In this document: positions 17,010-61,548 of the stretch, piece after piece
Position numbering within the stretch: position 1 is the first letter of the stretch
Layout of the letters: the number at the start of each line of letters is the position of its first letter
Origin: Allodiplogaster sudhausi
Lineage: Eukaryota; Nematoda; Chromadorea; Rhabditida; Diplogasteridae
Assembly: GCA_945643635.1 (NCBI GenBank)
Contig: CALZFC010000007.1
Location: 722,501 to 786,500 of the forward strand
Reading direction: 5' to 3'
Length of the DNA: 64,000 nt
Translations under genes and position numbers: made by a program
Notes under the pieces: model-generated
Database searches by the model: none
Seen by the model: only the letters and a program-made list of their open reading frames with translations
What the model was told of the DNA's origin: nothing

Positions 17010-18160
17010 TCTTCCTCACAGAAAGACTGAAAGAAGTTTTAGAACTCCGTTTAAATTTATGTAGAATTAGAATTCTATTCAACTATGACCTTTTACTTTA
17101 TACCTCTATTTGCTTTTACGGTCTTTATATAGCCCTCAGATTGGGTTGAAAAGAAGAGCACGAATGAGATAACCTTAAAACAAATAATAAAATAATTGTA
17201 AGTTGAGCATGTTTGCTATAAATGATCAAAAAATTACCCAAATAGTTTAATAACAGAGTGAAGTAAGTAACCGAGAAGCAGAGAGCCCGAGAAAGGAAGG
17301 CGAACAGGGGGGAGGTCGGCTGCTTTCGCCGGAGATACACAGTGGAAATGAAGTTATTCAGCAATTTTATATCCTTGTAAACGTGAGAAAACTAAGATTA
17401 AGGTAATTATTTCTAAAAGTCCATCATTTTCAAACAAATCGGCTAAGTATTTTAAATTTGAATTTGTTTTATATATATGTAGTATAGCGCGAGCTTCACA
17501 TTACTTCTAACAATAAGATATATGTACATACATGTGTGCTCTCGATGAATGTAACTTACAATTCAGGCTGTATTTTTTGGAATGAATCATCTGCAGATTT
17601 GAATTCGTCATGCTAATGATACACTAGTTGTTCCTAATTACTTCAGTGAATCGTTCACAATTGCACTCGAATAAAAAAAACAGTTAGCATTTTAGAATAT
17701 GGAATTTCGACGGGTCGGGCCAATAGGGCTGTCGTGAAAGATGCAAAATGCCTTTAGAAATGGCACATACTAGTGCGATTTTAATTCTAAAAAGAAAGGC
17801 AAACCTGAAAAATGAAGTTAGAAAAAAAAATCGCCTTTTACATATTCATTTATTCAACACAATAATATGTAATATCGTGAGAACACTTGAAGATATATTC
17901 CCGACTAACGATAAATATGTAAATAATGAGAGGAAGTTCTGACGAGGGAACCATCTAAGCGTAAGGTGGCGGATTTTGATCGCACCTGTCCAGATCGATT
18001 ACTACGGTCGAAAAAATGATTCTGGCATTTTCAATTTTTCCTAAATAGCCTCTGGCGATTTTATATTGATTTTTAAAAATTTGCATAAATTGAGGATGTC
18101 GGTTGCTGACCAATGTTTGCGATTGTCGGTATCTTGCTTGTGACTACAAAGCGTGGAATG
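17010..18160. other. Spacer, no gene recognised
   Basis: AT-rich sequence upstream of PMP3 copy 1. The promoter of that copy should be here. A 64-codon open frame at 17748-17942 is Lys/Asn-rich and has no family features, so it is not called. Confidence 0.5.
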
Positions 18161-18163
18161 CGT

Positions 18164-18236
18164 GGCGCAGTGGGTTGCGCGCTCGCTTTCAATTTTGAAC
18201 GTCACAGGTTCGAACCCCATTCGGTTGAACTTTTTG
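18164..18236 (+). repeat. tRNA-like (SINE-type) module
   Basis: The sequence has an A-box-like D-arm (TGGCGCAGTGGGTTGCGCGC) followed about 30 bases later by a B-box (GGTTCGAACCC), in the spacing of a tRNA internal promoter. No convincing acceptor stem or anticodon arm closes it, so it is not a functional tRNA gene. It is better read as a tRNA-derived repeat with a possible RNA polymerase III promoter. It lies about 115 bases left of the big palindrome, and its GTCACAGGTTC motif recurs in the 49-51 kb element. Confidence 0.6.
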
Positions 18237-18350
18237 CTGTGCTGCAGTTTGGAAATTAAAGTTTGGTGAAGTACATAAGAAAAAAATTATTCCGGTGAGA
18301 GGTGTCCACTTCACCCAGGTTTGAGATTCCACAATGACCTAAACAGTTCG

Positions 18351-24357: not shown

Positions 24358-24394
<37 letters not shown>

Positions 24395-24421
24395 AAGGAA
24401 GAGAGAGAGAGAGGGAGGAAG
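24228..24421 (+). repeat. 194-bp direct repeat, upstream copy
   Basis: This block is repeated, apparently without difference, at 26158-26351, 1930 bases downstream. The downstream copy spans the last coding bases of a collagen exon (coding for YAGS), its splice donor and most of an intron. This upstream copy is therefore a displaced piece of a collagen exon-intron junction, not a gene. Its right end merges into a GA microsatellite that runs to about 24515. Confidence 0.85.
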
Positions 24422-26287: not shown

Positions 26288-26324
<37 letters not shown>

Positions 26325-27647: not shown

Positions 27648-30232
27648 CTACACTCTTCCCCAGTTCTTTGGTCCCTCCCACACTTTGTTTACATTTCCAC
27701 GATCCTGCCTCTTTTGCTCACTTCCTTGCATCAGAATCCAGGCATGATCAGCATCAAATCCTTTCATTATTTGACCGCGGAGGCCACTGATGATATTGCA
27801 GACGGCGAGTGCCTGGATGGCCTGGTCCCCCTCGTAGGATAGCCGCTGGAAATATTACGGCTCGAGTAGTAATCGTTGCGGTAGAACTCGCCAATAAATG
27901 AAATCATTGTGAAAACTGGGGCAACACCTTGAAGAGTGGCAGAAGCAGCAGAATCTTGGCGACGCGCGTGGCTACTTTCCGCTCCGACAACTCGGGGCAG
28001 CACTGGCAAATGTGCGCGTACAACGCGTCTACGTAACGCGTCCTGGAGGTCGAAATATTTACGATAAGTATTCGAAAAAAAAAATAAATAATAAGCGTGA
28101 GTACTTTGTCTCCTCGACGTGACTCCTCGCCTGGTTCGACAGCTTCGGCGTGCTCATGAACAGCGCCAGCGCCTACAACCAAGACATGACGTTCACGCAA
28201 TATTTTTATTATTACTATTACAATTATTATTCTTATTATATTTAACATATGTATGTATATAAATATGAATATAAATGTATATTCTTTAAAATAAATTAGT
28301 ATACATGGATACTTAAAAGAAATGTAAAACAAAACGTGCCGACTCTGAGCACGGCGATTTCTCCGTCGTCGATGGCAATTTCTAGCATTGCAGAGAAGAC
28401 GTCGTCGAAGGTCGTTGTCATGTTCATCTTCCCGATGTGATTGGCTCTGCAAAAGAATCTGTGGACCGACAAAATTCCGGAATACGGAATTCCGTGAGTT
28501 ACGCGAGAGGCAGCTGGGATTGCACTTGCGGATTCCTCGGGTAGAAAGTGCCGTCCAGCATGAGCATCACGCCGCCGCCGATACGGACGAAACTGAGAAA
28601 GCCTTTTTTTGAGCTTGATTATATCAATTTTTTATTTTAATTATTCATAGATATTGTACGCCATAAGAATTTATAACATTGTGTTCATTTCAATTGGATA
28701 AAAAAAACTTATTAAAAGAGAATGAAGGTAAACCGACGAGTTGACTACGTTGACCAGGAGGGCGACCGTACTGCCGCGCGCACGAAAGAGTGCCTCACGG
28801 TCAGTCATCGCGAGGGCCTGTAATTGGAGATGTTTGGGTGTGAAATGAGGGAGGACATCAGCACGGGCAAAGAATAAAGTGAAAAAAATCCATACAAGGA
28901 AGTCACTGAGTAGATTGGCCCAATCGATGCCGAAGACCACGCCGCGCGTTATGATGAATGGAATGTCAGAGGGCTGGATCAGACGTTGGGCCTCCCAACA
29001 GATCTTAAGGATTTGATCTTGCTCTCTGAGCGACACTCTCTCGCTCGTTCTCCCTCCTCGTCCATCTAACTAGTGTTCTCACAGCGGCGATTCCACGTTC
29101 CTTCAAGACTGCCTTAAGCGGTAAGTCAGTTCGGAACAATCTTCCATTGTCCAGCCCGCTGCCGCCTGTCCCGCTCGTGCTTATTTGTTCAACCCTGCGT
29201 TCCTGCGAATTGAAATACCTGTGCTTATACATACATGCTTGTCTGATCACCCATGTCAATGCAGTTTTTCAGCGCAGCAGATTTTCGCTGCGTAAAGTTA
29301 GTTCTCAAGAGCCACCAAGGCTTGAAATAATTAATTTTTATCAGTACCAAATTTTAATTGAGTGTTAACCTGCTCGATGAGATGTTGCACGACGATTGCG
29401 TGCGGGAAGAATCGCAGCAGCAGAGGACTAGGGGCGATATCTTGTAAACATCGAATAAACACTCTTCTTGAGAGGTGGACGAGTTTCTCGGCTGGCAAAG
29501 CACCGTAGACAAAGCATGGCAAATCATGTAGTGGATGAATCTCGATCATACGTGCCTGTCATTTTCTGAGCTTCCTGAATCGCGTTCTGCCGCATCAACA
29601 GGCGGGCAGACACGACGGCGCTTGCCGGTTCACGCCGTTCCCTCTCGCTCTCCACTACTCAAATCACATCCTTCTTTTCAATTCGATGTCTGCTAGCCTA
29701 AAATACAAATACTAAAGGCAAAAATAGAAGCAAGAGACATACGCATTGCATCCATCCCTGCCGCCTTGCATCGCGCAAGCCGACAGCCACGGCATGCTCG
29801 GCGACTTTCTGAAAGAAAAGCAATTAACGTGGATGGGAGCGATGACTGACCGCTTGACACGTTGCAGGTTCCATCACTTTCGCATTTGTAACTCTTGTTG
29901 TTCCGTGTGCTAAAGAAGCAACATAGAATAGAGGAAAAGATTGAGTGAAGAATAGACTGACCATCTTCTGAAGAAGTTGCGGCAGCCGTTGCAGGCGATG
30001 GCGCCGAAGTGGGGCCATCCGCCGCTCGCGCCGCACACGCGACAGGGATCCACCTGTTCAGAAAGGTGGAAGTGCGTGTTGAAGCTTTGCTATTATGCAA
30101 TGCTCAAGACAAAGTCTTTGATAGAAAATGTCCTGCAACCATATATGTGGCCGAACGAAGAAGTTCTATTTGAAACTGACCATACTGACCTTCCGAATTC
30201 TCCTCGGCAGCGCAGTTTATCCGCCGTCCCAT
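27648..30232 (-). CDS. Nuclear hormone receptor A (possibly degenerate)
   Basis: A supplementary nuclear receptor: C4 zinc-finger DNA-binding domain plus ligand-binding domain, a ligand-regulated transcription factor. First exon candidate 30190-30232 (MGRRINCAAEENSE). Zinc-finger exons: 29962-30053 ([20 protein letters not shown]), 29851-29909 (NNKSYKCESDGTCNV) and 29743-29808 ([17 protein letters not shown]). Ligand-domain exons follow down to about 27.65 kb, including [49 protein letters not shown] and EGDQAIQALAVCN. Two oddities: exon 1 and the first zinc-finger exon do not join in the same phase, and the C-terminus departs from the HGLPYEVH(S/A)PD ending of its paralogues after GLRGQ, running on to a TAG at 27648-27650. 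One hinge junction may use a GC donor near 29580. Confidence 0.8.
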
Positions 30233-31685: not shown

Positions 31686-34360
31686 TTACTCGTAGGCTGT
31701 TGTATCTGGAGCGTGGACCTCGTAAGGCAGCCCGTGAAGGTCGTCGATGACATTGCAGAGGGCAAGGGACTGGATCGTTATATCCTGCTCGTATGCCACG
31801 CGCTGAAAGTTAGAAGACTTGATTCGCACAGAAGACATGGTCGAGAGAATCTTAAGTTGCATTGAAGACATTTACGATTTGGAAAAGACTCATAAATAAT
31901 GACTTTAGTACCTTTGCGAGTGGCAGAAGCAGCAGAATCTTGGCGACGCGCATGGCGACTCTCCGCTCCGACAACTCGGGGCGGCGCTGGCGAATGTGCG
32001 CGTATAAGGCATCCACGTAGCGCATCCTGAAGAGGACACATTAATATCGTGAGCAGTTTGATATCTTACGATGATCATCTGTTCAATTAGTATTCAGTAC
32101 AATTTTGCTGTGCGAGCTGGCTCTTGTTCGTAGCTTTTCAATGTACTGTACATACCTCTTGGGTTCAGTGGCAAATAAGACAATGAGACCGCATTTCCAC
32201 GTACAGTATAGCTATTTGGAGGTTTAATTTTCTAAATTTAAAATTATGCTATAAGGTTGAAGCAAGATTAGACCTCGTCTGCTCGACGTGACTCCTGCCC
32301 TCCGGTGACATTTTCGGCGTGCTCATGAACAGTGCGAGAGCCTATGAATACAGAACATATATTTACATGTATTTAAATTACGAATGAAGAAATTCTTTTT
32401 AACCTTGAGTACGGCCATTTCTCCATCGTCAAAGTCATTTTCACGCATGGAAGTGAAGAACTCGTCGAAGGCAGCTATAGCTCCTTTCAGGAAATGATTG
32501 ATGCTAAAATAAAAATAAAAATAAATTCAATACTTTAAGTTTAACGTGTGTGAAAAGAAAAAAAATCTTACGCAAACGGCAGCTCTTCCTGGAGGCGAGA
32601 ACACCTTGGATAGAACGTCCCGTCGAGCAAGAGAAGATTCTCCCCGCCACCACGGACGAAGCTGAATAAGTTGCCGTGAAATGAAACTGTGAAAACTATG
32701 GAATAGGAAAGAGAAGATAAACGAACGAGTTGACTCCGTGAGTAATGAAGGAAATCATTGTTCCACGTGCATGCAACAATGCTTGTCGGTCGGACATTGA
32801 CAGGGCCTGCAGGGTAATTGGTTCGAGGCTGGCGGGCAGGAGGTTCATAATTGAAGGAGTAAATAAGGAGAAGAGTCCATACGTAGAAGTCATTGAGCAG
32901 AGTGGCCCAGTCGATGCTCAGGACGATGGCGCGTGTTAGGATGAAAGGCACATCGGAGGGCTGCACGAGACGGCGGGCTTCCCATAATATCTCAATTATT
33001 CGACAATTAAAACTAGTTTTCTCTCACTTTCTGCCACTCTCTCTCTCTCTCTCTGGTTCACTATCCCCCTTACTAACATTTCTTCTCTCACGCTCTCTAT
33101 ATATATTCCTTCATCCATCTAACCGGTGATCTTACGACTGCGCTTCCAGGGTCCCTCAGCACCGCATTGAATGTCAAGTCGGTGCGAAAGAGTCTCCCAT
33201 CTTCTAATCCTCGATGCCCAGTCCCGCTGGAGCCCAGCTGCTCTACCCAGTGTTGCTGCAGAAGAAATGGGGTTTGACAAAAGAGTCCTTACCAGTTAAT
33301 TATACTTTGTGAAAGTACAGTGCGTTCGTTTAGTTCGGTATACTAAAGAGCTAATCGTCAGTATTAGCTGCTCTCTGGGTCATGCTTGGAAATACTCACC
33401 TGGTCGATAAGATGCTGCACGAGTGCGGCGTGCACGGAGAGACGTAGTCGCAGAGGACTCAGCGACCGTTCAGTGTAATCCTCTTCAAATTATGGTTAAG
33501 AACATTTTTTTATGAATTCACTGTGTCAATATTGCCATGAAAATAGCAGCCCTCACCGAGTGGCGGCAGTTCATCGTCGATCTCAGGCGTCTCCTCCTCT
33601 TCTACGCTTTCTTCTCTCTTGATTGCCTGCCGCCTCATCAACTCTTGCGCAGACACCACGGACAGCTTGCTCGCTTCTGGCTTTCCCCGCTCGCGCGTCT
33701 CCTCCACAACTGCAATTACGGGTTCAAATCAACTGATGATTTAAAAAAAACTAGATGAAGTATGAAGTTAAAAAGACGTACGCATTGCGTCCATCCCTGC
33801 TGCGATGCATTGTGAAAGACGGCAGCCGCGACACGCTCGAGGAGTTCCTGAACTCATTGGATAAGACCCGACTTTTGTAGGATGCTAAGAACAGTATAAA
33901 AATTAAAAGTTAATTCATATAGAAATCACTCGCCTCTTGCCACGCTGCAGTTGTCTTCTCTCATGCATTTGTAGAGTTTATTGCCCCATATGCTGAAATT
34001 GTACCAGTAATCAAAAATCTCGAGAATAATTTGAACGTTCGTATATTATTATATATTTATATGAAGTAGCGATAGAAGACGTAAAATGCACCATCTTCTG
34101 AAGAAGCTACGACACCCGTTGCAGGAGAGGGTGCCGTAGTGGGGCCTGGCTCCGCTCGCTCCGCATACGCGGCAGTCGTCCGCTGGAAAATGTCAACAAA
34201 TAATTGTTACTAATAAAATTCAAATCTAAAATGTTATATTTAACTAAATTTAGCAGAAAAAAAATTTCTGCGTAACAAACTGACCGTCCTGCTGTCCAGG
34301 CGCACCGTCTTCAGTCTTCGAAGTGCCGGCGAGAGCGGAGACTCGATTGCCTCGACCCAT
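31686..34360 (-). CDS. Nuclear hormone receptor B
   Basis: Apparently intact NHR. Exon 1 (34285-34360) encodes [20 protein letters not shown] and ends in phase 1. The zinc-finger exons, about 34093-34186 ([20 protein letters not shown]), 33933-33992 ([14 protein letters not shown]) and 33781-33850 ([17 protein letters not shown]), give all eight metal-binding cysteines. The hinge exon (33557-33709) is acidic and ends [10 protein letters not shown]. Ligand-domain exons: about 33401-33480 ([16 protein letters not shown]), 33140-33255 ([14 protein letters not shown]), 32880-32995 ([19 protein letters not shown]), 32727-32807, 32572-32663 ([15 protein letters not shown]), 32403-32505, 32274-32341 ([14 protein letters not shown]), 31912-32026 and 31686-31802, ending [12 protein letters not shown]. 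Phases agree throughout where checked. No ligand or target can be inferred. Confidence 0.9.
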
Positions 34361-36590: not shown

Positions 36591-38940
36591 ATTCAATTTA
36601 TTGATTTTTCCTTGACCTGTAGTGGATCAATGAAACCAATAATCTGCTACTAATGATCTGACAGTATAAAGAAGCAACCCTGAAAATTTCATTAACTTTC
36701 ATAAACTTTGAAGGAAAATATGTGTGAAAAACCAAAAGTTCACGTTTCTCTGAGCGCCACTGTACCTTGATGAGCGGAAGGAGCAAGAGAATCTTTGCAA
36801 CGCGAATCGCAACTTTTCGCTCGGAGAGTTCGGGGCGGCCTTGGCGAATGTGCGCGTACAACGCGTCGATGTAGCGCATCCTGAATATTTGTATAGTTAT
36901 AATCAGGTGATCTCAGATAAATTGAAAGAAAGAAACACCTCGTCTCCTCGACGTGCCTCCTCCCATCCGGTGACATTTTCGGCGTGCTCATGAAAAGCGC
37001 GAGGGCCTACAGCAAAATACATAGTACATATACTAAAATTGATTGATGTGTTTTTTTTTCTTGTGTTCTTTCTTCTTACCCTGACGACTGCCATTTCACC
37101 GTGATCTATGGCTATTTCACGCATGGCAGCGAAGAGCTCATCGAAGGAAATTGTAGCACTTGTTTTCAGGAAGTGGTTGATGCTGCTAGCGAATTGAGCT
37201 GTGTTCTTCTTACATACGCGAACGGCAGTTCGGCCTGAAGGCGCGGACATCTCGGGTAGAATGTCCCGTCGAACAAGACGACATTCTCACCCCCATTTCG
37301 AACGTAGCTTAAAGTTTCGCGAAACTTAACCGTAATCTACTTGATTTTTTTTTCTAAACTATCAGTATCGTCTCTCTAAATCACACCGTTGTGTCAGGCA
37401 AAAAGGCACGAATCCAAGAATAAGTTTTTGTCTCCTTCAATGGGTACAGTTTTACATATGAGGCTACGGAAAACACTTAAAACACTGAAAAATGAAATGA
37501 AAACGAACGCATTGACTCCGTGCATCACGTAGGAGATCATGGTTCCTCGTGCACGTAACAACGCCTCACGGTCGGACAGGGAAAGGACCTGTGGATAGAG
37601 ATCATGGGTTTTCGGGTGAAGAAATGTCTATAATATGGAGGGTGCAAAAAATAAGAATAATATAATCCATACGTAGAAGTCACTGAGTAGATTGGCCCAA
37701 TCGATTATGAGGACAACGGCTCGAGTTATGATGAATGCTATGTATATCAGATGGCTGGATAAGGCGTCGTCCTTCCCAGCAGATCTCAAGAATAGATTCA
37801 TTCCTGCTGACTCCTCTCTCGCTGATTTAGTCTGACCGGAGTCCTGACGACAGCGATTCCAGGATCACTGAAGACAGCTTTGAAAGATAGGTCCGTGCGA
37901 AAGAGCCTTCCATCGTCCAGTCCACGATAGCCCGTCCCGCTCGAGCCCAACTGTTCCGCCCACTGCTGCTGCAATACAAGGGAAGGGTTCTTGCTATTCA
38001 ATAGTCGAAGTTTACTTGGTCAACGAGATGCTGCACGATTGCCGCGTGAGCAAAGAGTCGCAGCTGCAGAGGACTCGGAGACTGGCGAGTGACTTCTTCT
38101 AAACTAATGGTAAGTGAGATGATTATATTAATAAAAAGATGCTCACCGAGTAGTGGCAGTTCATCCTCGATCTCATGCCCTATTTCGCCTTCCCTGCTGT
38201 TCATCGTCTGCCGTATCATCAACTCGCGTGCTGACACGACTAAATGAGCACTTGGCTGCGCCAGTCGCACCCTGTCGCCCTCCACAACTGCAAAGGCTGC
38301 TCTGCCACCACCACTTTCAGTTCATTGAACATTTAATTTAATTTTTTTTATTAATTGAAGAATTAAAAAAATTATAGTGTACGTTTTGACTGCCTTTCCA
38401 TGACAATGAGTTTGTGAATCAAGCATGACCAAGTTGCACAGAAAAGGAGGCCTCCACAAATATGTACATGGATCCGACTATCAAAAGAAGCACATATGTA
38501 TAGTGCGTTTGTTTATTGGACCGACAAGTAACTTGTTTTTTCCTAACAGTTTTATGATTTCATTAAAACGAACACATGGCGTTCATTCCTTCCCGAACGC
38601 AACGCGAAAGGCGGCAGCTGCGGCACGAACAGCGAGTTCCTGAAAGAAGATACCAGAGCGGTGAGCGCCAGAGGCCAATAGTAAACGCGATAAAATGACC
38701 GTGTGCGACGCTGCAGTCGCCGTTCCCCTTGCATTTGTAGTGCTTCTCGCCCCAGATGCTGAACAATTAAGTGATAAAAAAGTAAATATGCAAGCCGCGG
38801 TGATAAACAAACGAAGCCGCACCAGCGCCTGAAGAAACTGCGGCATCCGTTGCACGAGATGGCTCCGTAATGGAGCCTGACTCCGCTCACTCCACACACG
38901 CGGCAGTCGCCCACTCAAGAACCACTATCAATAAAGTTGT

Positions 38941-41573
38941 TTAAGAGAGCCAATCTGAGAGGATCGAGCAGGGTGCAATACAGGGCTGCAATGGGAAAAT
39001 TTTGATTTTTAAAATCGCTGAAAACTTGATCATTTGTACTACTCGACATGCTCTTTAAAACTGTAAAATTTTGGATTCGAAAAAAAATTTCTGTTCGAGT
39101 TAGCTGTATTTTTGTTTTAAAATTCACATGCCCATAAATCTGTTCTTTCTTAATATTTTTGAAATCTCTTTTTTGCAATTTATAGATCTTTAATTCCTCT
39201 TTAAAAAAGATCCTTTTTTGTAAAAAAATTTTAAAGCGGCAAAAATCACAAAAATAAGTTTTTAAAGACGGTTTTTCGGGGTTTTTAGGCCGAAAAGCCT
39301 CCGCGGGGTAGGTAAGCTGTTCATAGAAAGAAAGCCCATTAAATTTGCTACAAAGCTAACCAACTTTAAAAAAAATCGAAGGGTATGTATTTTGGGTATT
39401 TGCACTTAGGAAATCATACTCGACCTCCAACCTTCCACGCAGGAGGTCCGGGTTCGATGCCCGGTCGGGGCAAAGTTTTGCAATGTTTTGGAAACTAGCA
39501 AAAAACGTATTTTCGATCGTAAATTAATGTCTTTTCATCTCATAGCTCCATAATATTGCTCAAACTTTGGATTTTTTTTTCACCAACACAATCTCTTCAT
39601 AGTGAACTGTTCTCAGTCAACATAGGTATGTTTATTCCAACAAAACCTTTACAATGGCTAAGTAATGTGGTGAAATTATAGAATGTCTACAGTAATGCTC
39701 TTTTTATATAGAATCATAGAATGCTCTTTTTAGAGCAGAATTCTTTCGAGCTGACTGACGCAAGTGCGGAGTGTCTTGATTGTCAACAAGAAATAGTGGT
39801 ACGACTCAGACGTAAGTTAGTAAATATCAAGAGAATGATGAATAATTTTGTCAATGACAGTAATTGTATGTATATTCCAATTTCCCAAATGATGAGTAAA
39901 AATATAGTAAAGTCTGTGAATGTTAATAATGTAATGGAGTAATTTCGAAGTGAACAACATGCTAACAATGTTGTTTGGATAATTGATATATGTCATGGAA
40001 ATTCATGAAGATAGATACAGATATTTAATGACGAGAACGAACGATGCCAATTCGATGAAGGATCCATTCTCGATACTGAGGAAGCATTTGAATGCTGGCA
40101 TGAATAGAGATAGTACCTTCAGGAATCTCTAGGGTGCGATCGATGTTATATCGATGATCGAGACCCAGTGAGTTCGATTCGAGTAGTTGAGATACAAGGA
40201 AAGCGTTTAGGGTCGTGAATAGCTTCGTCTGGATAGAAGTTCAGTTGAATGTAATCAATTTCTGCTGCACATCCGTACATTAGCGGATGAGGAAAGTAAA
40301 CGTTAGTAACGCAGCTGTGGTGGCTGCGGTTATATTCGACTTTCTTCATAGTAGTTCTTGCCAAATCAGATCGTAGAGTAGCGTATAATTCGCTAAAGGG
40401 ATGTGACACTGTCATTTGAAGTGACTTCGATGAGGCGAATTTTGATGGGGTATATTGTATGTAGATGGTAACGGGTTCTGGGATAATAGCACCAAAAGCC
40501 CAGTCTGCTAGCGTATTCTTGAGGCGCCAGGAGTAGCGTGGTTCAATTGAGGAGACGCAAACGGAATCACCTGAGGAGCTCTCGAATGAAGACGTATTTG
40601 AGCCTGTAGACATGAGCGGGTCTGTCCAGACAGCACCCAGACGCGTCCACGATGAACTTTTCTGACCATAAGTCGTGAAAATCTCTACATATTAATCACT
40701 GATTAGCCCCTGCAAGTGATTTGAGAAACGCTTTGAACTTGTTGAATCACGTAGCTATAATGCTTCTATAATTCTGCTACATTACTTAGCCATTGTAAAG
40801 GTTTTGTTGGAATAAACATACCTATGTTGACTGAGAACAGTTCACTATGAAGAATAGCCATTGTAAAGGTTTTGTTGGAATAAACATACCTATGTTGACT
40901 GAGAACAGTTCACTATGAAGAAATTGTTAGTTGGTGAAAAAAAAAATCCAAAGTTTGAGCAATATTATGGAGCTATGAGATGAAAAGACATTAATTTACG
41001 ATCGAAAATACGTTTTTGCTAGTTTCCAAAACATTGCAAAACTTTGCCCCGACCGGGCATCGAACCCGGACCTCTTGCGCGGAAGGTTGGAGGTCGAGTA
41101 TGATTGCCTAAGTGCAAATACCCAAAATACATACCCTTCGATTTTTTTTAAAGTTGGTTAGCTTTGTAGCAAATTTAATGGGCTTTCTTTCTATGAACAG
41201 CTTACCTACCCCGCGGAGGCTTTTCGGCCTAAAAACCCCGAAAAACTATCTTTAAAAACTTATTTTTGTGATTTTTGCCGCTTTAAAATTTTTTTACAAA
41301 AAAGTCACCTAGATCTTTTTTAAAGAGGAATTAAAGATCTATAAATTGCAAAAAATAAATTTCAAAAATATTAAGAAAGAACAGATTTATGGGCATGTGA
41401 ATTTTAAAACAAAAATACAGCTAACTCGAACAGAAATTTTTTTTCGAATCCAAAATTTTACAGTTTTAAAGAGCATGTCGAGTAGTACAAATGATCAAGT
41501 TTTCAGCGATTTTAAAAATCAAAATTTTCCCATTGCAGACGGTAGATCGAGCCTTACAGATAGGCTGTCTTAA
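38941..41573. mobile_element. 2.6-kb fold-back element flanked by TTAA
   Basis: Arms of roughly 700 bases (38941-about 39645 and about 40800-41573) are inverted copies, and both outer ends sit at TTAA (38941-38944 and 41570-41573). The tips are related but diverged (GAGAGCCAATCTG against GACAGCCTATCTG). TTAA duplication is the hallmark of piggyBac-type transposons, but no such transposase is present. Each arm carries the 3' half of a tRNA-like sequence, with a perfect CCGGG-TTCGATG-CCCGG T-arm (about 39465-39485 and 41050-41070). The interior (39690-40780) is unpaired and coding-like on the minus strand. A 67-base segment is duplicated in tandem at 40786-40852 and 40854-40920. The element lies in intron 1 of NHR C. 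Confidence 0.8.
40023..40613 (-). pseudogene. Unrecognised protein inside the fold-back element, frameshifted
   Basis: From the ATG at 40613 (MSTGSNTSSFESSSGD) an open frame of 155 codons runs to 40146. The frame is open further upstream to about 40691. Codon quality then continues in another frame (DRTLEIPEGTISIHASIQML) to a TAA at 40023-40025, so a small indel near 40160 appears to have split one gene of about 190-200 codons. It has a Ser-rich start, then a mixed body with aromatic-rich patches (IEPRYSWRLKNTLADWAFG, CAAEIDYIQLNFYPDEA) and no Cys/His zinc motif. I recognise no transposase, integrase or polymerase motif. A viral structural-type or host-derived cargo protein is possible, but I have no evidence for either. 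Confidence 0.45.
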
Positions 41574-43342: not shown

Positions 43343-45998
43343 TTACTCGTACGCCGAGAGATTGGGAGAGTGTACTTCGTAGGGAAGACCGTGAAGATCT
43401 TCGACGACATTGCAGACCGCGAGAGATTGGATAGAATTGTTTTGGTCGAGCGCTATTTTCTAGACATGAATTTATCCACATTTTAACGGATCCAACACGA
43501 TTTGAGAAAATCGACGCTCCCACCTTGAAAAGAGGCAGCAGTAATAGAATCTTGGCCACGCGAATGGCAATTTTCCTCTCCGTCAACTCAGGGCGACTCT
43601 GGCGAATGTAAGCGTACAACGCATCCAAATAACATATCCTGAAGGAAACATTTAATAATTATCATAATTGCTTCCCTATTATTTTGTTAAAAAAATTTGA
43701 AGAAAGATGAACCTCGTCCGCTCGACGTGGCTTCTCCCTTCAGGCGAAAGCTTCGGCGTGCTCATAAATAATGCGAGGACCTACAAAATAAGAATGTCAC
43801 AAGTTAACCAATAATAGTGAAAACATGATCAAAGACTCTTTCTTAGTCATTCTAACCCGTAGCACTGCGACTTCCCCGTTGTCGATATAAATTTCCCGCA
43901 TTGCAACAAAAAGCTCGTCGAATGAGGTTGTTGCATTCATTTTCAGGAGATGGTTGATTCTGCAAACAATATCAGTATTTGACAATTTCCTGTGCTTTAT
44001 CTTTCTTACGCGAACGGCAGCTCGGCCTGGAGTTTAGGGCATCTCGGGTAGTATGAACCATCAAACAAGAGAAGATCGTCCCCACCAAAGCAAAAATATC
44101 TGAAGCCGTTGCAATAAAAAAAGTAAGTTCTAATTGCCCCTCCTAGGCTTAGTACGTATAGTAGAAAACCTGGAAACTTAATTCGAAAAAGTCACTTGGG
44201 CGGTTATTAAAAATAGTTTGTAACTGTTAATCCAATAAAGAACAGCATTAACAAGAAATACATATGTATATTAAAGGCAACGTACGAATAGCCCACGTGC
44301 ATCACGAAGGAAATCACCGTTCCACGCGCGCGTAACAAAATCTCGCGATCGGACATTGAGAGGGCCTGCAGTTGGGGAGAGTTTAGAGAGGAGATTCAAA
44401 AGGTCAGAAGCTAATAAATAAGGGTACAACTAGATAGAGAAGTAGGTCAAATAGTCCATACATAAAAGTCGCTGAGTAGATTGGCCCAATCGATGCAGAA
44501 GACCACACCGCGAGTAATGAGAAATGGCAGATTAGAAGGCTGGAGAATACGCCGCTTCTCCCAGCAAATCTTAAGATTACATAACGTAGATATCAGAGAT
44601 CGAAACATCTAGTTCTAAATCGAGAAGAGCTTCTTTCCATTTTCTGGTCAATTAGTTGTATGCATACACTTTCTCAAGCCTTTTTTCTTCGTTATCACCC
44701 TTTCTCAGTCTCACCGGAGTCCTGACGACGGCGATTCCAGGGTCCCTGAAGACAGCTTTGAAGGACAAGTCTGTGCGGAAGAGCCTTCCATCGTCCAGTC
44801 CATGATAGCCCGTCCCGCTTGAGCCCAACTGCTCCGCCCAGTGTTCCTGCGAGGTCAATTGAAATAGTTTCCATTTGTTTTGTAAACGTTCTGCCCCTCT
44901 TGCCCATTCCCACCATATTTATCTAAAGCTTATCAATATACATAGTTGAATGAGAAAAGCGCACCTGATCAATGAGATGCTGCACGACTGCTGCGTGTGC
45001 GAAGAGGCGCAGCTGTAGAGGATTCGGTGCTTCTTGGATGTCGTCTGTTCAAGAAGGACGATAAATAAAAAGAAAACTTTGATCGTAAGTATTTTTTCGA
45101 AGTTCGCTGTGAGTAAGCTGCGTTTGCGGTGCCCTCCACCATTTGTGACTTCTACCCAGTGGTGGCAGTTCATCGTCGATCTCAGCCTCCTCCTTCCCCA
45201 TCGCCTGTCGTTTCATCAACTCGCGTGCAGACGCAACGAAAATGTCGGTTGACCGTGTTTTGCGTTCTCTTTCTCCTTCCACTACTGCAAAGGCAGATAC
45301 TTACGAATTATATCAATTGTAGTCATCATCATCATCAATAGATTTTTCAGCCTCGTACATACATACATCGTGACGTGCTAGTACATATATAGTTTCCACC
45401 CGCAATTGAATTTCAAAATTCAATAGCACGAGGTATATGTACGAGGTATGTCTTAATATATTTTCTTCATATGTAGTAATACTGTAATTTATATAAAAAG
45501 GTAACGAAAGACATACGCATGGAGTCCATTCCTTCTTGAAGGCAGCGTGCAAGACGGCAGCTACGACACGCTCTACGAGTTCCTGAAAGAAGTTGCTAGA
45601 ACTACATAGAGTGAGTGCCAAACCACGAACAAAGCCGAAAATAGCTGACCATGAGCGGTGCTGCAGTTGCCGACTTGCATGCATTTGTAGGTATTGTTGC
45701 GATAAATGCTCAACCAGCTTCGTTTATCATCATGTACATACATATTATGGTAAAGTGGCGTCATGAAAATATAGCAGAAAACTGTGGGTCAAAACCAACC
45801 TTCGTCTAAAGAAGTTGCGGCATCCGTTGCACGAGATGCTTCCATAATGGAATCTTGCTCCGCTCGCGCCGCACACGCGGCAGTCCTCAACTGGAAATTA
45901 CAACTAATAATTAAATTTTGGAGATTATATTTTAATTTCTTACTCTTTTATATCATTTCATTACACAACATACTTCCAGATTATTTATTCTATTAGCG

Positions 45999-47932: not shown

Positions 47933-50293
47933 TTAATAATATACCGAAGCATCGGGAGAGTGAACTTCGTAGGGGAGACCATGAAGATCTTCGACTACGT
48001 TGCAGACCGTAAGAGATTGGATAGAATTATCTTGATCGAGCGCTATTTTCTGAAAATAAATCTATGTATGCTTTTTAATTTTAGAAAATCGACTTTCCCA
48101 CCTTGAAAAGTGGAAGGAGTAACAAAATCTTGGCAACGCGAATGGCAATTTTCCTCTCCGTCAACTCAGGGCGCCTCTGGCGAATGTACGCGTACAGCGC
48201 ATCCAAATAACGTATCCTGAAGAAGCACTTAATAAACTTTCAAGTAAATTTGAATAGAGATGAACCTCGTTCGCTCGACGTGGCTTCTCCCTTCAGATGA
48301 CAGCTTCGGGGTGCTCATAAATAATACGAGGGCCTACAAAACAGGAATGTCAACAGTTAATCAATAATCGTGAAAGCAAGATCAAAGACCCTTTTTTTAT
48401 CCATTCTAACCCGGAGAACAGCGACTTCCCCGTTGTCGATACAAATTTCCCGCATAGCAACAAAAACTTCGTCGAAGGAGGTTGTAGCACTCATTTTCAA
48501 GAAATGGTTGATGCTGCAAAGAAGTTCAGTTCGTGGCACTTTCCTGTGCTTCATCTTTCTTACGCGAATGGCAGCTCGGCCTGGAGTTTAGGGCATCTCG
48601 GGTAGAATGAACCATCGAACAAGAGAAGATCGTCCCCACCATAGCGAAAATAGCTAAAAACCGTTTACTTGATAAGTGCCATGAATTAAGACATTACTTT
48701 ACAATTGCTAGGTTTGAATTTGTACGGAACATGCGAGAAAAAATCCAATATATTAGAGAAAGAAGTGAAAAGGAAACGAACGAGTTGGCTACGAGAATCA
48801 CGAAGGAAACCATTGTTCCTCGTGCACGTAATAAGATCTCGCGATCGAACATTGAGAGGGCCTGCAGTTGGGGAGAGTTTAGAGAGGAGATTCAAAAGGC
48901 CTGAAGCTAATAAATAAGGGTACAACTAGATAGAGAAGTAGGTCTAATAGTCAATACATAAAAGTCGCTGAGTAGATTGGCCCAATCGATGCAGAAGGCA
49001 ACACCGCGAGTAATGAGAAATGGCAGATTAGAAGGCTGGAGAATACGCCGCTTCTCCCAGCAAATCTTAAGATAGCAAAATAAAAATGCCAGAGATCAAA
49101 AAAATCTAGTTCTCCATCGAAAAGAGCTTCCTTCCATTTACTGGTCAATTTGTTGTACATACATATGTACATATGTATGTATGTATGTACATACAGTACC
49201 GCTCAGCGGCCAGGGGTCAATGCTATAGCGGCTATAGCGGCTATAGCCAAAAGAGGCCAAGCGAAATTAAGGCCTGTAACATTTTTGTTTTCAGAATTCA
49301 TTGTTATTTCTGTCTTCAGGGCAATGTTCTGCATCCATTAAGCTCAAAAACTCTACAAAACAACGCATTTTCACCAAAATGGAAAATCTTGTAAATCTTT
49401 GGTGCAGGAACAACACAATTAGTAGTGTGTGAATGTGTGATCGTTTCAGTGAAATTTATAAAGGCACTTGCTCGAACCGTATAACAACTTTAAATTACAG
49501 TTTCAAGCTATATTTTGCATCCTTTTGTCTTAAGAAGATACTTTTAATGCTACAAGTGAAAAAGGTATGACAAAAAATCTTGCAAAAAAAATTGGAAGAA
49601 ATAAGCTCAAAAGAGGAACCGAACCCCGGCTCTCCCGTTCATGCACATGCTAAGCATACCAATGCTCCATCCAGCCATAATGTTAGCCAACTCGAAACAA
49701 TTTTAGGAAACATTTTGACGGCTTTAAAGAGTTGTTAGAGTCCATGCCATAAAAATTCATTCCTTTCAGTAGTGTTCTGTAAGTTGCCACATTTCAATTT
49801 CGAAAACAAAGTTTCGGGTTGTCTCCTCTCCTCTCATCGGAATATTTCTTTTTACGAACGAACTTTCCAGATTTGAATTCCAAAAGCTCAGAACAACGTT
49901 TGCTGCGATTGGGGTTAGAACCTGTGACATGCAAAATCGCAGGCCAGCGCTTAACCCACTGCTCCACACCTATCATATCCGTTCGCCTCGCCAGCCTAAC
50001 TTTAGCAGTGGGTGAGCCACCTACTTCGAAAATTTACTCTCTCTCTCTCGATTTATTCTCCCTTTTCTTCGCTTTGAATTGCTTCGCCTCCTCTTTGAGC
50101 TCTTATTTTGATTCTCCTTATTTTTCCTAGTCAAAACATTCGCCCCGGTTGGGATTCGTACCTGCGACGCTCAAAACAACACGCAACACGCAGCGCAGCC
50201 TACTGCGCTACGCAGGCCATGTACGGGCCCTCAAGCCCGATAAATATAATGGCAGATCAGCCATTTACGTCGCCATTCAATTTCTTTCTCTCA

Positions 50294-50342
<49 letters not shown>

Positions 50343-53036
50343 GCTCTCTCGGTACGTATTGTTTTGTCCTCTCTTTGCTTCGCTTCAAGTGGCACGAATA
50401 TAGAGCAACTTCGAGTCCACAGAGCAAAAAGTTACGTTACCCTTGGGTATTACTTATAAGTAAACCATTGAAAGTCAGTACAAAGTGTCCAGGCCGAAAT
50501 CCAGATAGCGTCGCTGCAATCGCACTGACGCCAATTAGAGCTCAAAGGGGATTGCTCAAAGCGGAAACAAAGGGAGACCAGTCAACGCCTGGCTTTAGGC
50601 CTCTGATGTGGCCTGCGGAACGCAGTAAGTTGCACTCCAGCTTGAACTTTTGAGCGTCGCAGGTTCGAATCCCTACGGGGGCGAAAATTTGCCTAGGAAA
50701 AATTAAGGAGAGTCAAGATCGGAGCTCAAAGTGGAGGATAGTTCAAAGCGAAGCAAAGAGAGGGCAAATCAAGACGTAACACAGAGACCCACTTTCAAGG
50801 TTCGGCTTGGTCGAACAGACATGATTGGTGTAGCGCAGTTGGGTTAAGCGCTAGTCTGAGATTTTCCATGTCACAGGTTCTAACCCCTATCGTAGCAAAC
50901 GTTTTTTTCTGATTGTGAGCGTTGGGAATTCAAATCTGGAAAGTTCGTTCGTAAAAAAAATATTCCGATGAGAGGAGAGGAGACAACCCGAAACTTTGTT
51001 TTCGAAATTGAAATGTGGCAACTTACAAAACACTACTGAAAGCAATGAATTTTTATGGCATGGACTCTAACAACTCTTAAAAGCCGTCAAAATGTTTCCT
51101 AAAATTGTTTCGAGTTGGCTAACATTATGGCTGGATGGAGCATTGGTATGCTTAGCATGTCCATGAACGGAAGAGCCGGTGTTCGGTTCCTCTTTTGAGC
51201 TTATTTCTTCCAATTTTTTTTGCAAGATTTTTTGCCATACGTTTTTCACTTGTAGCATTAAAAGTATCTTCTTAAGACAAAAGGATGCAAACTAGAGCTT
51301 GAAACTGTAATTTAAAGTTGTTATACGGTTCGAGCAAGTGCCTTTATAAATTTCACTGAAACGATCACACATTCACACACTACTAATTGTGTTGTTCCTG
51401 CACCAAAGATTTACAAGATTTTCCATTTTGGTGAAAATGCATTGTTTTGTAGAGTTTTTGAGCTTAATGGATGCAGAACATTGCCCTGAAGACATAAATA
51501 ACAATGAATTCTGAAAACAAAAATGTTACAGGCCTTAATTTCGCTTGGCCTCTTTTGGCTATAGCCGCTATAGCCGCTATAGCATTGACCCCTGACCGCT
51601 GAGCGGTACTGTATGTATTTATGCATAACTCTTTCTCTAGCTTTTCTCAGTCTGACCGGAGTCCTGACGACGGCGATTCCAGGGTCCCTGAAGACAGCTT
51701 TGAAGGACAAGTCTGTGCGGAAGAGCCTTCCATCGTCCAGACCACGATAGCCCGTCCCGTTTGAGCCCAACTGTTCCGCCCAGTGTTCCTTAGAGGTCAG
51801 TTGGTATAGTTTCTATTCGCTTTGGAAACGTTCTGCCCTTCTTGCTTATTCCCACCTTATCTATAGTACAAATTAGAAAGCGAACCTGGTCGATGAGATG
51901 CTGCACGACTGCCGCGTGGGCGAGGAGGCGCAGCTGTAGAGGATTCGGTGTCTCATGGATGTCGTCTGCTAAAATACAGTGATAAAAATTACTCTAAGTA
52001 AGAAATAAATGTAGCTGATCTGAGAGAATATTTCACCTAGTGGAGGCAGTTCAATGTCGCTCCCTTCTTCGTCTCCTTTCTCCACTTGCTTTATTGCTTG
52101 TTGCATCATCAAAGCACGCGCAGAGACGATGGAAGAAGCGTTTTTCTGTGTTTGGACTTCCCTATCGCCCACAACCACTGCAAGGACTAACAGTGAAAAT
52201 GCCTCGTTCATTGTGATGTAAAACGCACACATTGGGTCCATTCCTTCTCCAAGGCATCGTGCTAGGCGACAACCACGGCAGGATCGTTGAGTTCCTGAAG
52301 AAATTTAGCAGATTAATATAACACGTCAGCAAAAGCAACTAATTCTGTCTATTTTTTATGAATCACATAGGATTTTGAATAATCAAATATTGCATTATTG
52401 AATGAAAAAGTTGTTGTGCAAAATATGTTTGAATAGAAATTTTTCATAGCCATTCTTTAAGTCAACAACGATCCATTAGCGGATGATGCGTGATGCAGAC
52501 TTATTCTTGGCCGCCAAGTGGGCTGGCGGGGTCAAGCTGTACCACTGAAGGCTCAGTTTAACTGACCCTGTGCAAGGCTGCAATCTCCGCCTCTCCGACA
52601 CTTGGGCTGATTCTTGCCCGATGTGCTAAAAGAATCCGGATAGTTCCAACAATCAAGTCTATTGCTTGGACACGGACACAAAATATTTTTGTGATAAGAA
52701 CTAAAAAAAGTTGATGATGCCTTTCTAGAAGGTATCACAGTGATTGAGTACGTGAGGGTACCTTCTTCTGAAGAAGATGCGACATCCATTGCATGTAATC
52801 GCTCCGTAGTGCGGCCTCGCCCCGCTAGTGCCACACACGCGGCAGTTGACATCTTAGAAAAACTGTTATAATTATCTTCTTTCATATTTCAGTGCCATAT
52901 TTTTGCAAAAGTTATAGTATATTTGTTGTTATACAAAAAAACTTTGTTAATACAACTGACAGTCTTGCCGAACGGTTGCGTTATTTTCAGCCTTTGATGT
53001 GCTGGCAGTCGCAGAGCCTTGATGTCCTCCGACCAT
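47933..53036 (-). CDS. Nuclear hormone receptor E, with element in an intron
   Basis: NHR with all expected exons. Exon 1 52961-53036 ([20 protein letters not shown]). Zinc-finger exons about 52764-52853 ([20 protein letters not shown]), 52563-52622 ([14 protein letters not shown]) and 52229-52293 ([17 protein letters not shown]). Hinge about 52037-52180. Ligand-domain exons run from 51886-51966 and 51650-51790 ([18 protein letters not shown]), then after a 2.4-kb element, 48956-49075 ([20 protein letters not shown]), 48790-48865, 48559-48650, 48412-48515, 48267-48335 ([16 protein letters not shown]), 48101-48220 and 47933-48051, ending [12 protein letters not shown]. The zinc-finger acceptor is TTCTAAG, not CAG. 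The intron with the element is unusually long (about 2.6 kb), but its splice sites appear to survive. The gene is probably functional if these are spliced. Confidence 0.8.
49194..51611. mobile_element. 2.4-kb fold-back element with tRNA-like modules, TA-flanked
   Basis: The ends are perfect mirror images (CAGTACCGCTCAGCGG inward from both sides) and are flanked by TA on each side, as expected for a Tc1/mariner-type target. Arms extend about 1 kb each (49194-about 50250 and about 50600-51611) around a loop with a (CT)n run at 50285-50345. Each arm contains two tRNA-like modules: minus strand at about 49908-49975 and 50143-50222, plus strand at 50826-50892 and 50610-50690. They show A-box-like GCGCAGTTGGGTTAAGCGC and B-box-like GGTTCTAACCCC. 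A GCTATAGCG triplet repeat lies just inside each end. It sits in an NHR E intron. No transposase is seen. Confidence 0.85.
50826..50892 (+). repeat. tRNA-like module in right arm
   Basis: Reads TGTAGCGCAGTTGGGTTAAGCGC, then about 25 bases on GTCACAGGTTCTAACCCC. The spacing matches tRNA A and B boxes. The T-loop has TTCTAAC where a tRNA needs TTCRANY, and no acceptor stem closes, so it is tRNA-derived rather than a tRNA. A mirrored copy lies at about 49908-49975. Confidence 0.55.
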
Positions 53037-54888: not shown

Positions 54889-57800
54889 TCAAATGTATGC
54901 GGAGGCATCGGGAGAGTGCACTTCGTAAGGCAGGCCGTGGAGGCCTTCGACGACGTTGCAGATCGTGAGAGATTGGATGGAATTGTCTTGATCGTGTGCT
55001 ATATGCTGCAATTAAATATCTCTCAACAGTATTATTGGTAAAATTAGCGAAATTAGTGAAAAACGATGGGAGTACTTTTAAAACTGGCAGGAGTAGCAGA
55101 ATCTTGGCCACGCGAATGGCAATTTTCCTTTCCGTCAACTCAGGGCGGTTCTGGCGAATGTGTGAGTACAACGCATCCAAATAACGTATCCTGAAGGAAT
55201 TACATATGTATTTAATAATTACCATCAACAGCTGTTGTTCATTATATTACATCATAAAGTTGAAGAAAGATGAACCTCGTCCGCTCGACGTGGCTTCTCC
55301 CTTCAGGCGAAAGCTTCGGCGTGCTCATAAATAATACGAGGGCCTATAAAATGAGAATATCAAATGATATGAAAACATGATTAAAAGAAGACAGTCACCA
55401 AAAAAATTAATGCATCTTCAGATTGCCGCCCATTCTATCTAATCTCTCGTTTTCTCGTGATCTTTTTTCGCTGAATGAAAATGGGAATAAATAATCTTTT
55501 TGTTATCCTCCTTAAAAAATTCTTTGCCTTTCTAACCCGAAGCACAGCGACTTCGCCGTTGTCGATTCCAATTTCCCGCATTGCAACAAAAACCTCGTCG
55601 AAGGAGGTTGTAGCACTTATTTTCAGGAAATGGTTGATACTGCAAGGAAGTTAGGTTCGTGACACTTTCCTGTGTTTCATCTTTCTTACGCGAACGGCAG
55701 CTCGGCCTGGAGTTTAGGGCATCTCGGGTAGTACGAACCATCGAACAAGAGAAGGTCGTCCCCACCATAGCGAAAATAGCTAAAAACGTTCTACTTGATA
55801 AGTTCCATGAATTAAGACATTACTTTACAATTGCTAGGTTTGAATTTGTACGGAACATGCGAGAAAAAATCCAATATATTAGAGAAAGAAGTGAAAAGGA
55901 AACGAACGAGTTGGCTACGAGAATCACGAAGGAAACCATTGTTCCTCGTGCACGTAATAAGATCTCGCGATCGAACATTGAGAGGGCCTGCAGTTAGGGA
56001 GAGGTTCCACAGGAGATTAAAAAGTTCACGTGCTAATGAATTAAGGTTTAAAAATATATGCATACATATAGAGAGAATTAGATCAAATAGTCCATACATA
56101 AAAGTCGCCGAGTAGATTGGCCCAATCGATGCAGAAGACTACACCTCGCGTTATAAGAAATGGCAGATTAGAAGGCTGGAGGATGCGTCGCTTCTCCCAA
56201 CAGATCTTAAATAATAGAAAAAGCTTCATGTTACTGTGGAATATGAAAAATCTCGAAATAATAATTACCGCTTTAAATATTTTCTATCTTCACTCTTCTT
56301 CCATCTAACCGGTGTTCTGACGACAGCGATTCCAGGTTCCCTCAGGACAGCTTGGAAGGATAAATCGGTGCGGAAGAGGCATTGGTCGACCATGCTACTG
56401 TAGCCAGTCCCGCTCGTGCCCAGCTGTTCCACCCAGTGTTGCTGCGAATGCAAAACGAGATTAAACCTCTGATTGTACCAGTAGTGATTGATTGTACCTT
56501 TTATTATCATCTATGTATGTACATATATTCCTCGCGATATCTCACAATCAGTGAAATTGCCATACATAAAGTGCACCTGGTCAAGGAGGTGCACTACGAG
56601 GGCCGCGTGTGGGAAGAGGCGCAGCTCCATAGGACTCCGTCTCGTTTCTTCAATTATGAAATGATAACAAGTGGTCTAATTATATTGAGGTTAACTGAAA
56701 AGATGAACAAAGACCAATTGAAGAACTCGGCAGTTATTTCACCTCTCCCGGTCCCATTATCCTCGATCTCCGGCGCCTCCTCTTCTTCTTCGAGCTCCTC
56801 ATTTCCCATCACCTGCTTTCTCATCAGCTCCCGTGCGGACACCACAGAACGAGTAACTGGCAGTGCGCGCTTGTCTCTGTCGCTCTCCACCACTGCAAAT
56901 GCAACTAATGTAAGTATAGCACTGGATATTATCTTTCTCACGATCAGGCACTTTGTGTCCCACCACCATAGTAAAACGTTTGTTTTAGAAGCTTGGGGAA
57001 TATGTATGTGTGGTATGCATATGTACATACATACATAAATACAAATGCAAATAGATTTGTCAAAGTAAAATCACCAGGACTTCGGATAAGCGATCTTCAC
57101 TTGATAGATATATTTTAAATGGCCAATTTTAAAGGAAGAAAGAATTGTTAGTTTTGAGAAAGGAATCGCTGCTGCCAAGGGCAACGAAAATGGAGAAAAC
57201 GCGATTCCTTCCTTGCTCCAATGGCCGCCGTATTCGGTGGGAAAGATGCTTCAGGAAAAGTAGTGATTTTTTTTACGCACAAAATTTCCAGACCACTGCT
57301 TGCGCTATTGTGATGACCTTCTAGCCTAGTGACTTCATGAGAGACGACCTTGGATTGATGCGACTCTCAATCAAGGCGCACCACTCAATTTCATCGAAAA
57401 AACTGAATTCGAAAAGCATTGCCAATATTGCAGGCAAATTTTATACGAAAAGGGAAAAATTCTTTTCAAGACTCTCTAGAATTATGATCCCTTTGTACTT
57501 TGTGCTTGATTACTTCCTAGCTCAATTTTCTTATTCATAAGAAACTAAAGAAAGTGAAAACCGCACGCATTGAGTTCATTCCTTCGCTGCGGCACCGCGC
57601 AAGACGGCACGAACGACATCGTCGACGATTCCCTGAAATTAATAAACAAAATGTTAAATTAGACCACAGAAAAGCGAATACAACTTCGAATTGCCCCGTC
57701 CTTCACGGGAGCAGGCACTCTCACTCTCTCCAGCTGTTTCGGTAATCTCTTTAAGCACAAGCAACGAATAGCTGACCATGCGCGACGCAACAGTTGTCTT

Positions 57801-60297: not shown

Positions 60298-61548
60298 TCA
60301 TTGATATGCGGAAGCATCGGGAGTGTGCAACTCGTATGGCAGACCGCGGAGATCTTCCATGACGTTGCAGACGGCGAGAGATTGGATGGCAATGTCCTCC
60401 TCGTACGCTACTTTCTAGAATACCACTTTCAGTCTTATATCATAAGTTAAAAGAAAACATTCGAATTACAGTACCTTGAAGAGCGGAAGAATCAAGAGAA
60501 TCTTGGCGATTCGCATGGCGACTTTTCTCTCCGATAGCTCGGGCCGCCTCTGGCGAATGTGCGCATAAAGACCGTCCACGTATCGGATCCTGAATATCAA
60601 TGCTATTAGCTTTTTATCATTTTCAATTGCAATTGAATAGTGAATATTATAAAAGAAGCCAGCCTCGTGTCTTCGACTCGCTTCCGTCCCTCGGCCGACA
60701 TAAGTGGCGTACTCATGAACAGAGCTAGTGCCTGCAACAAAAAAGAATATCATTTCTTTAATAAAGTCACTAGATTAAAAAAAATCTCTAATTATCAACA
60801 TTTCAGACCCTGAGCACGGCGATTTCGCCATCGTCGATCGCAATTTCCCGCATGGCAGCAAAGACTTCATCGAAGGAAGCGGTGATATTCTCATTCACGA
60901 AGTGATTCACACTGCAATCAATGAAGTGTTCGTCAAGCACAAGCACATCTTCTCGCGTACGCGAAGGGAAGTTGTGCCTGTACTTTCTGACTCCTCGGGA
61001 AGTAGCTGCCGTCGATCATCAACATGACGTCACCGCCGAAGCGAATATAACTAAAACACATTTCTTCATAACTCTGTGTACATGCATTGCCGGTCACATC
61101 TAAATTACACAATATTTTAGCAATTCAAATATAGCCAAAAGCATCGAGTGCAAACATGACACTTTCGTCCATTCTCGAATGTTTGCAAAAAGTCACACTC
61201 AATCAACCAATATTTGATATACATAGTTTTCAAAAGTACTGTATATAAGAGTGTAAAAAGAAATGCAGAAGTGAATGTACATACGAGTTAACTCCATGCA
61301 TCAAGAGCGCGACCATTGTACCGCGTGCCCGTAACAATGCCTCTCGGTCGGACATAGAAAGTGCCTGAGAGGAAAGAATATTTTTCAACTTAAAACTTGT
61401 ATTTATTTATATCATTACGAATAGAGTAAGATGCCTACGTAGAAATCGCTAAGTAGATTGGCCCAGTCAATGCAGAGGACGATGCTGCGAGTAATGATGA
61501 AGGGAACGTCAGAAGGCTCGATGATGCGGCGACCCTCCCAGTTCACCT
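60298..61548 (-). CDS. Nuclear hormone receptor G, 3' part only
   Basis: Ligand-binding half of another NHR. Exons: about 61435-61548 (EPSDVPFIITRSIVLCIDWA), 61286-61366 ([17 protein letters not shown]), 60960-61050 (MLMIDGSYFPRSQKVQAQ), 60806-60912 (SFDEVFAAMREIAIDDGE), 60663-60733 (ALFMSTPLMSAEGRKRVED), 60474-60588 (RPELSERKVAMRIAK) and 60298-60414, ending YELHTPDASAYQ. All are in frame where checked. The exons for the zinc fingers, hinge and first part of the ligand domain are not found between 61548 and 64000, which is filled by spacer and a palindrome. Either the palindrome is an intron insertion and the 5' half lies beyond the window, or G is truncated. The sequence is closest to B and A in style (DVPFIITR, ERK-VAMR). 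Confidence 0.75.

Follow-up and report, generated by a model that had tools for sequence, protein, structure and literature searches.

What is the 2418-bp (about 2.4 kb), gene-less palindrome that lies in an intron of a nuclear hormone receptor (NHR) gene of the nematode Allodiplogaster sudhausi, and what might the tRNA-like sequences in its arms be? The locus belongs to a 64,000-nucleotide stretch of contig CALZFC010000007.1 (assembly GCA_945643635.1, positions 722,501 to 786,500 of the forward strand), here called the window, whose own numbering we use throughout. Judging from its sequence, we propose that the element at 49194-51611 is probably a non-autonomous palindromic fold-back DNA transposon that inserts at TA, with two inverted arms of about 1 kb carrying passengers that resemble tRNA-derived short interspersed elements (SINEs). 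This is based on its symmetric and defined ends, the TA on either side, the long arms, the units within them, and its absence from five paralogous introns.

A sequence-only reading had described a TA-flanked palindrome at this place, and our analysis agrees on its extent and on the TA at both sides; its ends are symmetric and its outer arms about 98% complementary. The ends, outer arms and host intron are as follows:

49066..51656, minus strand: host intron between exons E6 and E7, 2591 bp, or about 171 bp without the insert (exon mapping)
49192..49193, no strand: TA, left target-site copy (sequence, by eye)
49194..49847, plus strand: left outer arm, complementary to 50958-51611 at 641 of 654 positions, no indel (arm alignment)
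49194..49209, plus strand: terminal CAGTACCGCTCAGCGG (end-pattern scan)
49222..49247, plus strand: 2.9 (three) tandem units of GCTATAGCG, subterminal (repeat scan)
50958..51611, minus strand: right outer arm (arm alignment)
51558..51583, plus strand: 2.9 (three) tandem units of GCTATAGCC, the mirror of the left set (repeat scan)
51612..51613, no strand: TA, right target-site copy (sequence)

Each tip starts with CAGTACCGCTCAGCGG and has TA immediately outside it. With up to three mismatches allowed, TACAGTACCGCTCAGCGG is found in the window only at 49192-49209 (plus strand) and 51596-51613 (minus strand), and 100 shuffles gave no match at the same stringency. The 9-mer GCTATAGCG/GCTATAGCC is repeated close to either tip, and the octamer GCTATAGC has six of its seven window occurrences inside the element (0.54 expected). 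By eye, TA is the sole short direct duplication compatible with the tips, and beyond it the flanks are unlike each other, barring a few bases of TACATA/TATGTA simple repeat.

The palindrome was also said to sit inside an NHR intron, and it does. The host gene lies on the minus strand and its hand-spliced protein of 415 residues matches zf-C4 (E=8.7e-18) and Hormone_recep (E=1.9e-11), with E6 (ending at 51657) and E7 (starting at 49065) on either side of the insert. Searching with this protein gave no match at E<=0.001 in a set of 7994 scored candidates. All five window paralogues that have both exons possess a short equivalent intron lacking the element (about 145 bp at 44570-44714, 52 at 37785-37836, 133 at 32991-33123, 104 at 56206-56309 and 70 at 29004-29073, lengths being taken from the ends of tblastn matches), and an alignment of the joined flanks against the nearest paralogue supports an equivalent site without the element. 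The flanks are identical to that paralogue at 350 of 394 and 291 of 326 positions, compared with 641 of 654 between the outer arms. Since the outer arms are more alike than the flanks are to the paralogue, the gene was duplicated before the element inserted, or before its arms were last homogenised. Among the matches listed, the NHR array comprises about seven minus-strand paralogues at 27651-61546, with intron positions in common.

What do the arms carry? Four symmetric tRNA-like modules had been reported, and we recover them as M1 and M2, mirrored in identical order on the left (M1L, M2L) and right (M1R, M2R) arms, so that the claimed nested symmetry holds as well, with a weak A box in M2R (7 of 10 informative positions). 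A fainter pair in the outer arms, M3, is tentatively considered a third. These units, the centre between them and a related unit elsewhere in the window (S) are:

49615..49669, minus strand: M3L, tentative module from A box to B box, facing outward (A 8/10, B 9/10, spacing 44)
49820..49980, minus strand: M1L unit, a tRNA-like head (A box 49966, B box 49912) plus tail, homologous to 18150-18310 (BLAST, box scan, profile)
50040..50232, minus strand: M2L unit, a tRNA-like head (A box 50210, B box 50152, spacing 48) plus GA-rich tail, facing outward (box scan, profile)
50238..50590, no strand: centre, which holds a CT microsatellite (50283-50350) and weakly resembles the M2 tail at two places, 50345-50390 (minus, E=9.3e-4) and 50534-50579 (plus, E=0.014) (repeat scan, profile)
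50600..50790, plus strand: M2R unit, A box degenerate (50618), B box 50662-50672 perfect (profile, box check)
50820..50985, plus strand: M1R unit, A box 50831, B box 50876-50886, T7 run from 16 nt past the B box (box scan, profile)
51136..51190, plus strand: M3R, tentative module (A 8/10, B 8/10, spacing 44) (profile, box check)
18150..18302, plus strand: S, a tRNA-headed unit homologous to the M1 head and tail, not within the arms of any palindrome (BLAST, box scan, profile)

The box pairs span 49966-49912 (minus) and 50831-50886 (plus) in M1, 50210-50152 (minus) and 50618-50672 (plus) in M2, and 49669-49615 (minus) and 51136-51190 (plus) in M3. Measured from the tips of the left and right arms respectively, they stand at 476 and 476 nt (M3), 773 and 781 nt (M1), and 1017 and 994 nt (M2). 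The spacing from A to B box is 44-45, the tRNA value, in M1L, M1R, M2R, M3L, M3R and S, and 48 in M2L.

We scanned the window for such pairs (A and B each at least 8/10, sum at least 17, spacing 40-56), using patterns and cut-offs that were chosen after the modules were known. Seven matches resulted, namely M1L, M1R, M2L, M3L, S (18163-18217) and two, at 12771 and 26379 (B score 8), that look like chance. Twenty order-1 Markov shuffles of the window gave 0-6 matches each, and seven in total at spacing 43-45 vs four in the window itself. The cut excludes M2R (A 7) and M3R (A 8, B 8), yet both occupy mirrored sites at spacing 44. Across the whole window, there is a mild enrichment of sites close to the B box (11 vs 5.6 expected) and to the A box (9 vs 3.5). 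A profile built from M1L, M1R and S picks up M2L (E=1.7e-9) and M2R (E=1.3e-8), both of which were outside the profile, and hence M1 and M2 are related; the M3 profile matched no other module.

The S unit matches the head and tail of M1 (BLAST E=1.5e-13) and is the only lone copy in the window among the matches listed. M1, M2 and S thus have A and B boxes at tRNA spacing, and S is a dispersed copy of head and tail together. In these respects the units resemble tRNA-derived SINEs, a class in which the boxes are followed by an unrelated tail, and one of them, S, occurs by itself. They differ from that class in lacking visible target duplications of their own, in having T-runs near the head, and in being mirrored in the arms of a palindrome. 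Intact or functional tRNA genes were considered and rejected, as ARAGORN found none, Rfam gave none at gathering score, and the cloverleaf count was at chance in eight of nine modules. Of eight modules that were folded, none reached a z of -2. A curated RNA family was rejected in the same way, all 20 Rfam matches being under the gathering score and none of them to a tRNA model.

In light of this architecture, how did the arms come to be as they are? An ungapped inverted repeat joins 49188-49852 to 50953-51617 (665 nt, 98% complementary, far above chance), and the gapped arms, 49188-50237 and 50591-51617, match at 88.8%. Long inverted arms therefore make up most of the 2418 bp, with no coding capacity, as in fold-back elements. 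The match between arms falls from tip to centre, from 641/654 (98%, with 13 substitutions and no indel) in the outer arms to 125/140 (about 89%) over M1 and 156/219 (about 71%) over M2 and the spacer. The steps between these strata are significant (Fisher p=1.2e-5 and 4e-5, with 640/653 used for the outermost), bearing in mind that we drew the strata on 50-column bins, that the first two share six columns, and that the last bin (7/13) was excluded. The first indel between the arms, at 49848/50958, lies within the tail of the M1 unit. As a single origin of the palindrome should have left equal divergence throughout, the step suggests either that homogenisation has worked inward from the tip as far as the first heterology or that the outer part is the product of a later renewal.

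Two other origins must be weighed against these numbers. One is that two SINE-bearing elements inserted independently, head to head, which would suit inner parts that differ by about 29% and by several indels while the outer arms differ by 2%. We consider this quite unlikely, since both arms have the same module order at near-equal distances from the tips and there is a single pair of ends and of TA. The other is an assembly or read fold-back artefact, a suspicion raised by the presence of five large palindromes in 64 kb. It is extremely improbable here, as the arms of a fold-back read should be almost the same and lack such ends, whereas the outer arms differ by 13 substitutions, the inner arms diverge far more, and the ends are defined and bear TA.

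Could the arms instead serve the gene that contains them? The sequence-only reading saw a regulatory cassette for double-stranded RNA (dsRNA), in which RNA polymerase III (Pol III) transcribes both arms from opposing promoters and the resulting RNAs, once paired, modulate the NHR gene. There are indeed A and B boxes on both arms, and the element does sit within an NHR intron. The supposed complementarity of the arm transcripts, though, is contradicted by the orientation of the modules, all of which face outward (leftward on the left arm, rightward on the right). The arms being reverse complements of each other, outward transcripts from the left (minus) and right (plus) arms are same-sense and could not pair lengthwise; by BLAST, they align plus/plus at 88.7% over 1054 columns. 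Runs of T terminate Pol III, although T4 can be a weak stop, and the first run of at least four T past the B box comes at +14 nt in S, +27 in M1L, +16 in M1R, +16 in M2L, +190 in M2R, and +3 in both M3L and M3R. With runs of T4-T7 thus 3-27 nt past the B box in six of seven modules, Pol III is unlikely to read through the arms, and its products, if any, would be mostly short and same-sense. Given also that the boxes are not significantly better kept between the arms (p=0.09) and that all five paralogues with both exons lack the element, we judge such a cassette to be very improbable, and nothing in the sequence demonstrates control of the gene by the element.

What stands of the proposal of dsRNA in the intron is that one RNA running across the entire palindrome, such as the NHR pre-mRNA, could form it, whereas separate, same-sense arm transcripts could not. 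For the two 653-nt arms, an RNA duplex model predicts -1168 kcal/mol.

A further option is that the modules are working Pol III units, which the DNA transposon retains for the help they give it through open chromatin, TFIIIC binding or short RNAs. In its favour are the tRNA-like spacing of 44-45 in six modules including S (48 in M2L) and T-runs near the usual place of a tRNA terminator in S, M1R and M2L (14, 16 and 16 nt past the B box). The A and B boxes of M1 and M2 are also slightly better kept between arms (40/46) than the rest of the inner arm (242/320), but not significantly so, and strong promoter conservation was rejected because p=0.09 amounts to a lean only. For M3, the boxes match at 22/23 vs 619/631 in the remainder of the outer arms (p=0.37). 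Set against active units as well are the decayed A box of M2R and a crude cloverleaf count that, compared with composition shuffles, reached p<0.05 in one of nine modules (M3L, p=0.034), two of the nine coming from another palindrome. We therefore regard working units as unlikely, and the tRNA-like boxes as most likely relics.

That other palindrome (P3, at 38986-41538) is unrelated to the element. Its centre, about 1 kb long and not palindromic, holds a 181-residue open reading frame (ORF), which has no Pfam family above cut-off, and both of its arms contain an inward-facing sequence, CCGGGTTCGATGCCCGG, like a tRNA T-arm. The presence of these sequences, whose profile matches are weak (E=0.012 and 0.028), counts in favour of active units. 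One could go further and imagine a hybrid class of mobile element in this nematode, in which palindromic DNA transposons such as this one and P3 keep tRNA-like Pol III units for their own biology, for example for TFIIIC binding that holds the arms open or for short RNAs made locally that guard or target the element; this we hold to be improbable.

Returning to the proposed TA-inserting fold-back transposon, to which group might it belong? Both ends read CAGTACCGC, and so have the terminal CAGT of the IS630-Tc1-mariner end consensus. TA on both sides also fits that group, a point weakened by the TATG microsatellite at the flank. Thirteen stop-to-stop ORFs of at least 60 residues overlap the element, of which one is NHR exon E7; the other 12 were scanned and had no match above the Pfam cut-off (the best below threshold being DUF6796, E=0.0016), and a coding element is rejected on this basis. 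As there is no Pfam family, and hence no DDE/D transposase, in these 12 ORFs and the window has no partner that shares the ends, we suggest that the element works like a Tc1-mariner passenger and do not claim membership. Exact end patterns had no match in the viral and prokaryotic contigs of IMG/VR and GTDB. One match to the GCTATAGCG repeat in a viral contig was dismissed, as it lies in a repetitive stretch that, by eye, is unlike the element.

Several observations weigh against our proposal. The left flank is a TATG microsatellite, where a TA match arises easily by chance, and divergence among the paralogue introns is such that a TA from before insertion can no longer be recognised in them. 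Within the 64-kb window there is no second copy of the ends that would mark a repeat family, nor a transposase partner. Lastly, S shows by eye no flanking target duplications of the kind that a SINE should have.

Taken with these caveats, we envisage that a transposase supplied in trans would have moved the element by recognising CAGTACCGCTCAGCGG at its ends and, perhaps, also the GCTATAGCG repeats. The arms would have carried the tRNA-derived, SINE-like units along as old passengers, clearly so for M2 and M1 and tentatively for M3. Arm-to-arm conversion or recent renewal may have kept the outer arms alike while the part inward of the indel at 49848 drifted. The likely sole effect on the host would be an intron in the NHR pre-mRNA able to fold into a hairpin of about 650 bp, a potential substrate for ADAR and dsRNA-binding proteins, as such hairpins are in worms.

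Similar elements have been described. Dreyfus and Emmons reportedly described, in 1991, a palindromic transposon-related repeat of C. elegans, Tc6. It shares with the present element, by description, a nematode host, a palindromic and transposon-related nature and a lack of coding capacity, but it is not known to have tRNA-like modules. Tc4 of C. elegans is likewise a fold-back element of a nematode, but its target is CTNAG with TNA duplicated, as opposed to TA only here (PMC11071193). In Anopheles gambiae, 6 of 32 clusters like miniature inverted-repeat transposable elements are palindromic, with terminal inverted repeats and no identity to known elements; they differ in that the main text of that paper mentions neither tRNA nor SINEs (PMC3212995). 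For P. pacificus, no SINEs were called by RepeatModeler2 and 30 by RepeatMasker with a C. elegans reference (PMC9297572). Among the titles and abstracts listed, our literature search, which had most subscription papers outside its scope and is no proof of absence, found no palindromic DNA transposon with tRNA-like units. Unusual as it looks, the element belongs to a known kind of repeat.

As for the remaining palindromes of the window, the five show no mutual similarity at E<=1e-3 with a low-complexity filter. The one at 1789-2986 (arms 94.7% by blastn) has at its ends a subterminal pair of 15-bp units, each CAAYTGAGCAGCGG with one further base, and GATTATTA on either side, which resembles an 8-bp target duplication and hence a different type of transposon. 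The 1.7-kb palindrome at 18347-20060 (43-nt centre, arms 97-98%) has no clear target duplication; the S unit ends 44 bp outside its left end. A further palindrome (P5, 61741-64000, arms 98% by blastn) extends past the end of the window and has no similarity to the element. It apparently occupies the corresponding E6/E7 intron of a sixth NHR paralogue, whose E7 is at 61439-61546 and which has no E6 before the window ends, P5 starting there. The presence of two palindromes in the equivalent intron of two paralogues may be chance. Elsewhere in the window are a 194-bp direct repeat (24228-24421 and 26158-26351, 100% identity), the second copy of which adjoins a coding sequence that is collagen-like by eye, and Srd/Str chemoreceptor domains, whose families are not known outside nematodes and so point to a nematode source.

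In itself, the palindrome seems a commonplace piece of a genome. An intronic hairpin would be ordinary for a worm, given how common intronic inverted repeats are in C. elegans: about 25% of its expressed genes have an inverted repeat in an intron >1 kb, more than 98% of the edited regions identified in it contain inverted repeats and/or overlap transposons, and TDP-1 binds 51% of the intronic regions enriched in dsRNA pull-down (PMC4282642). What the element offers is a history, layered by age (98%, 89%, 71%), of likeness kept and lost between the two arms of a fold-back element. If its tRNA-like units were active, they would tie Pol III units to DNA transposons. In addition, a potential 650-bp hairpin in one member of a receptor array, whose sisters are without it, provides a natural comparison for the effect of intronic dsRNA on a gene.

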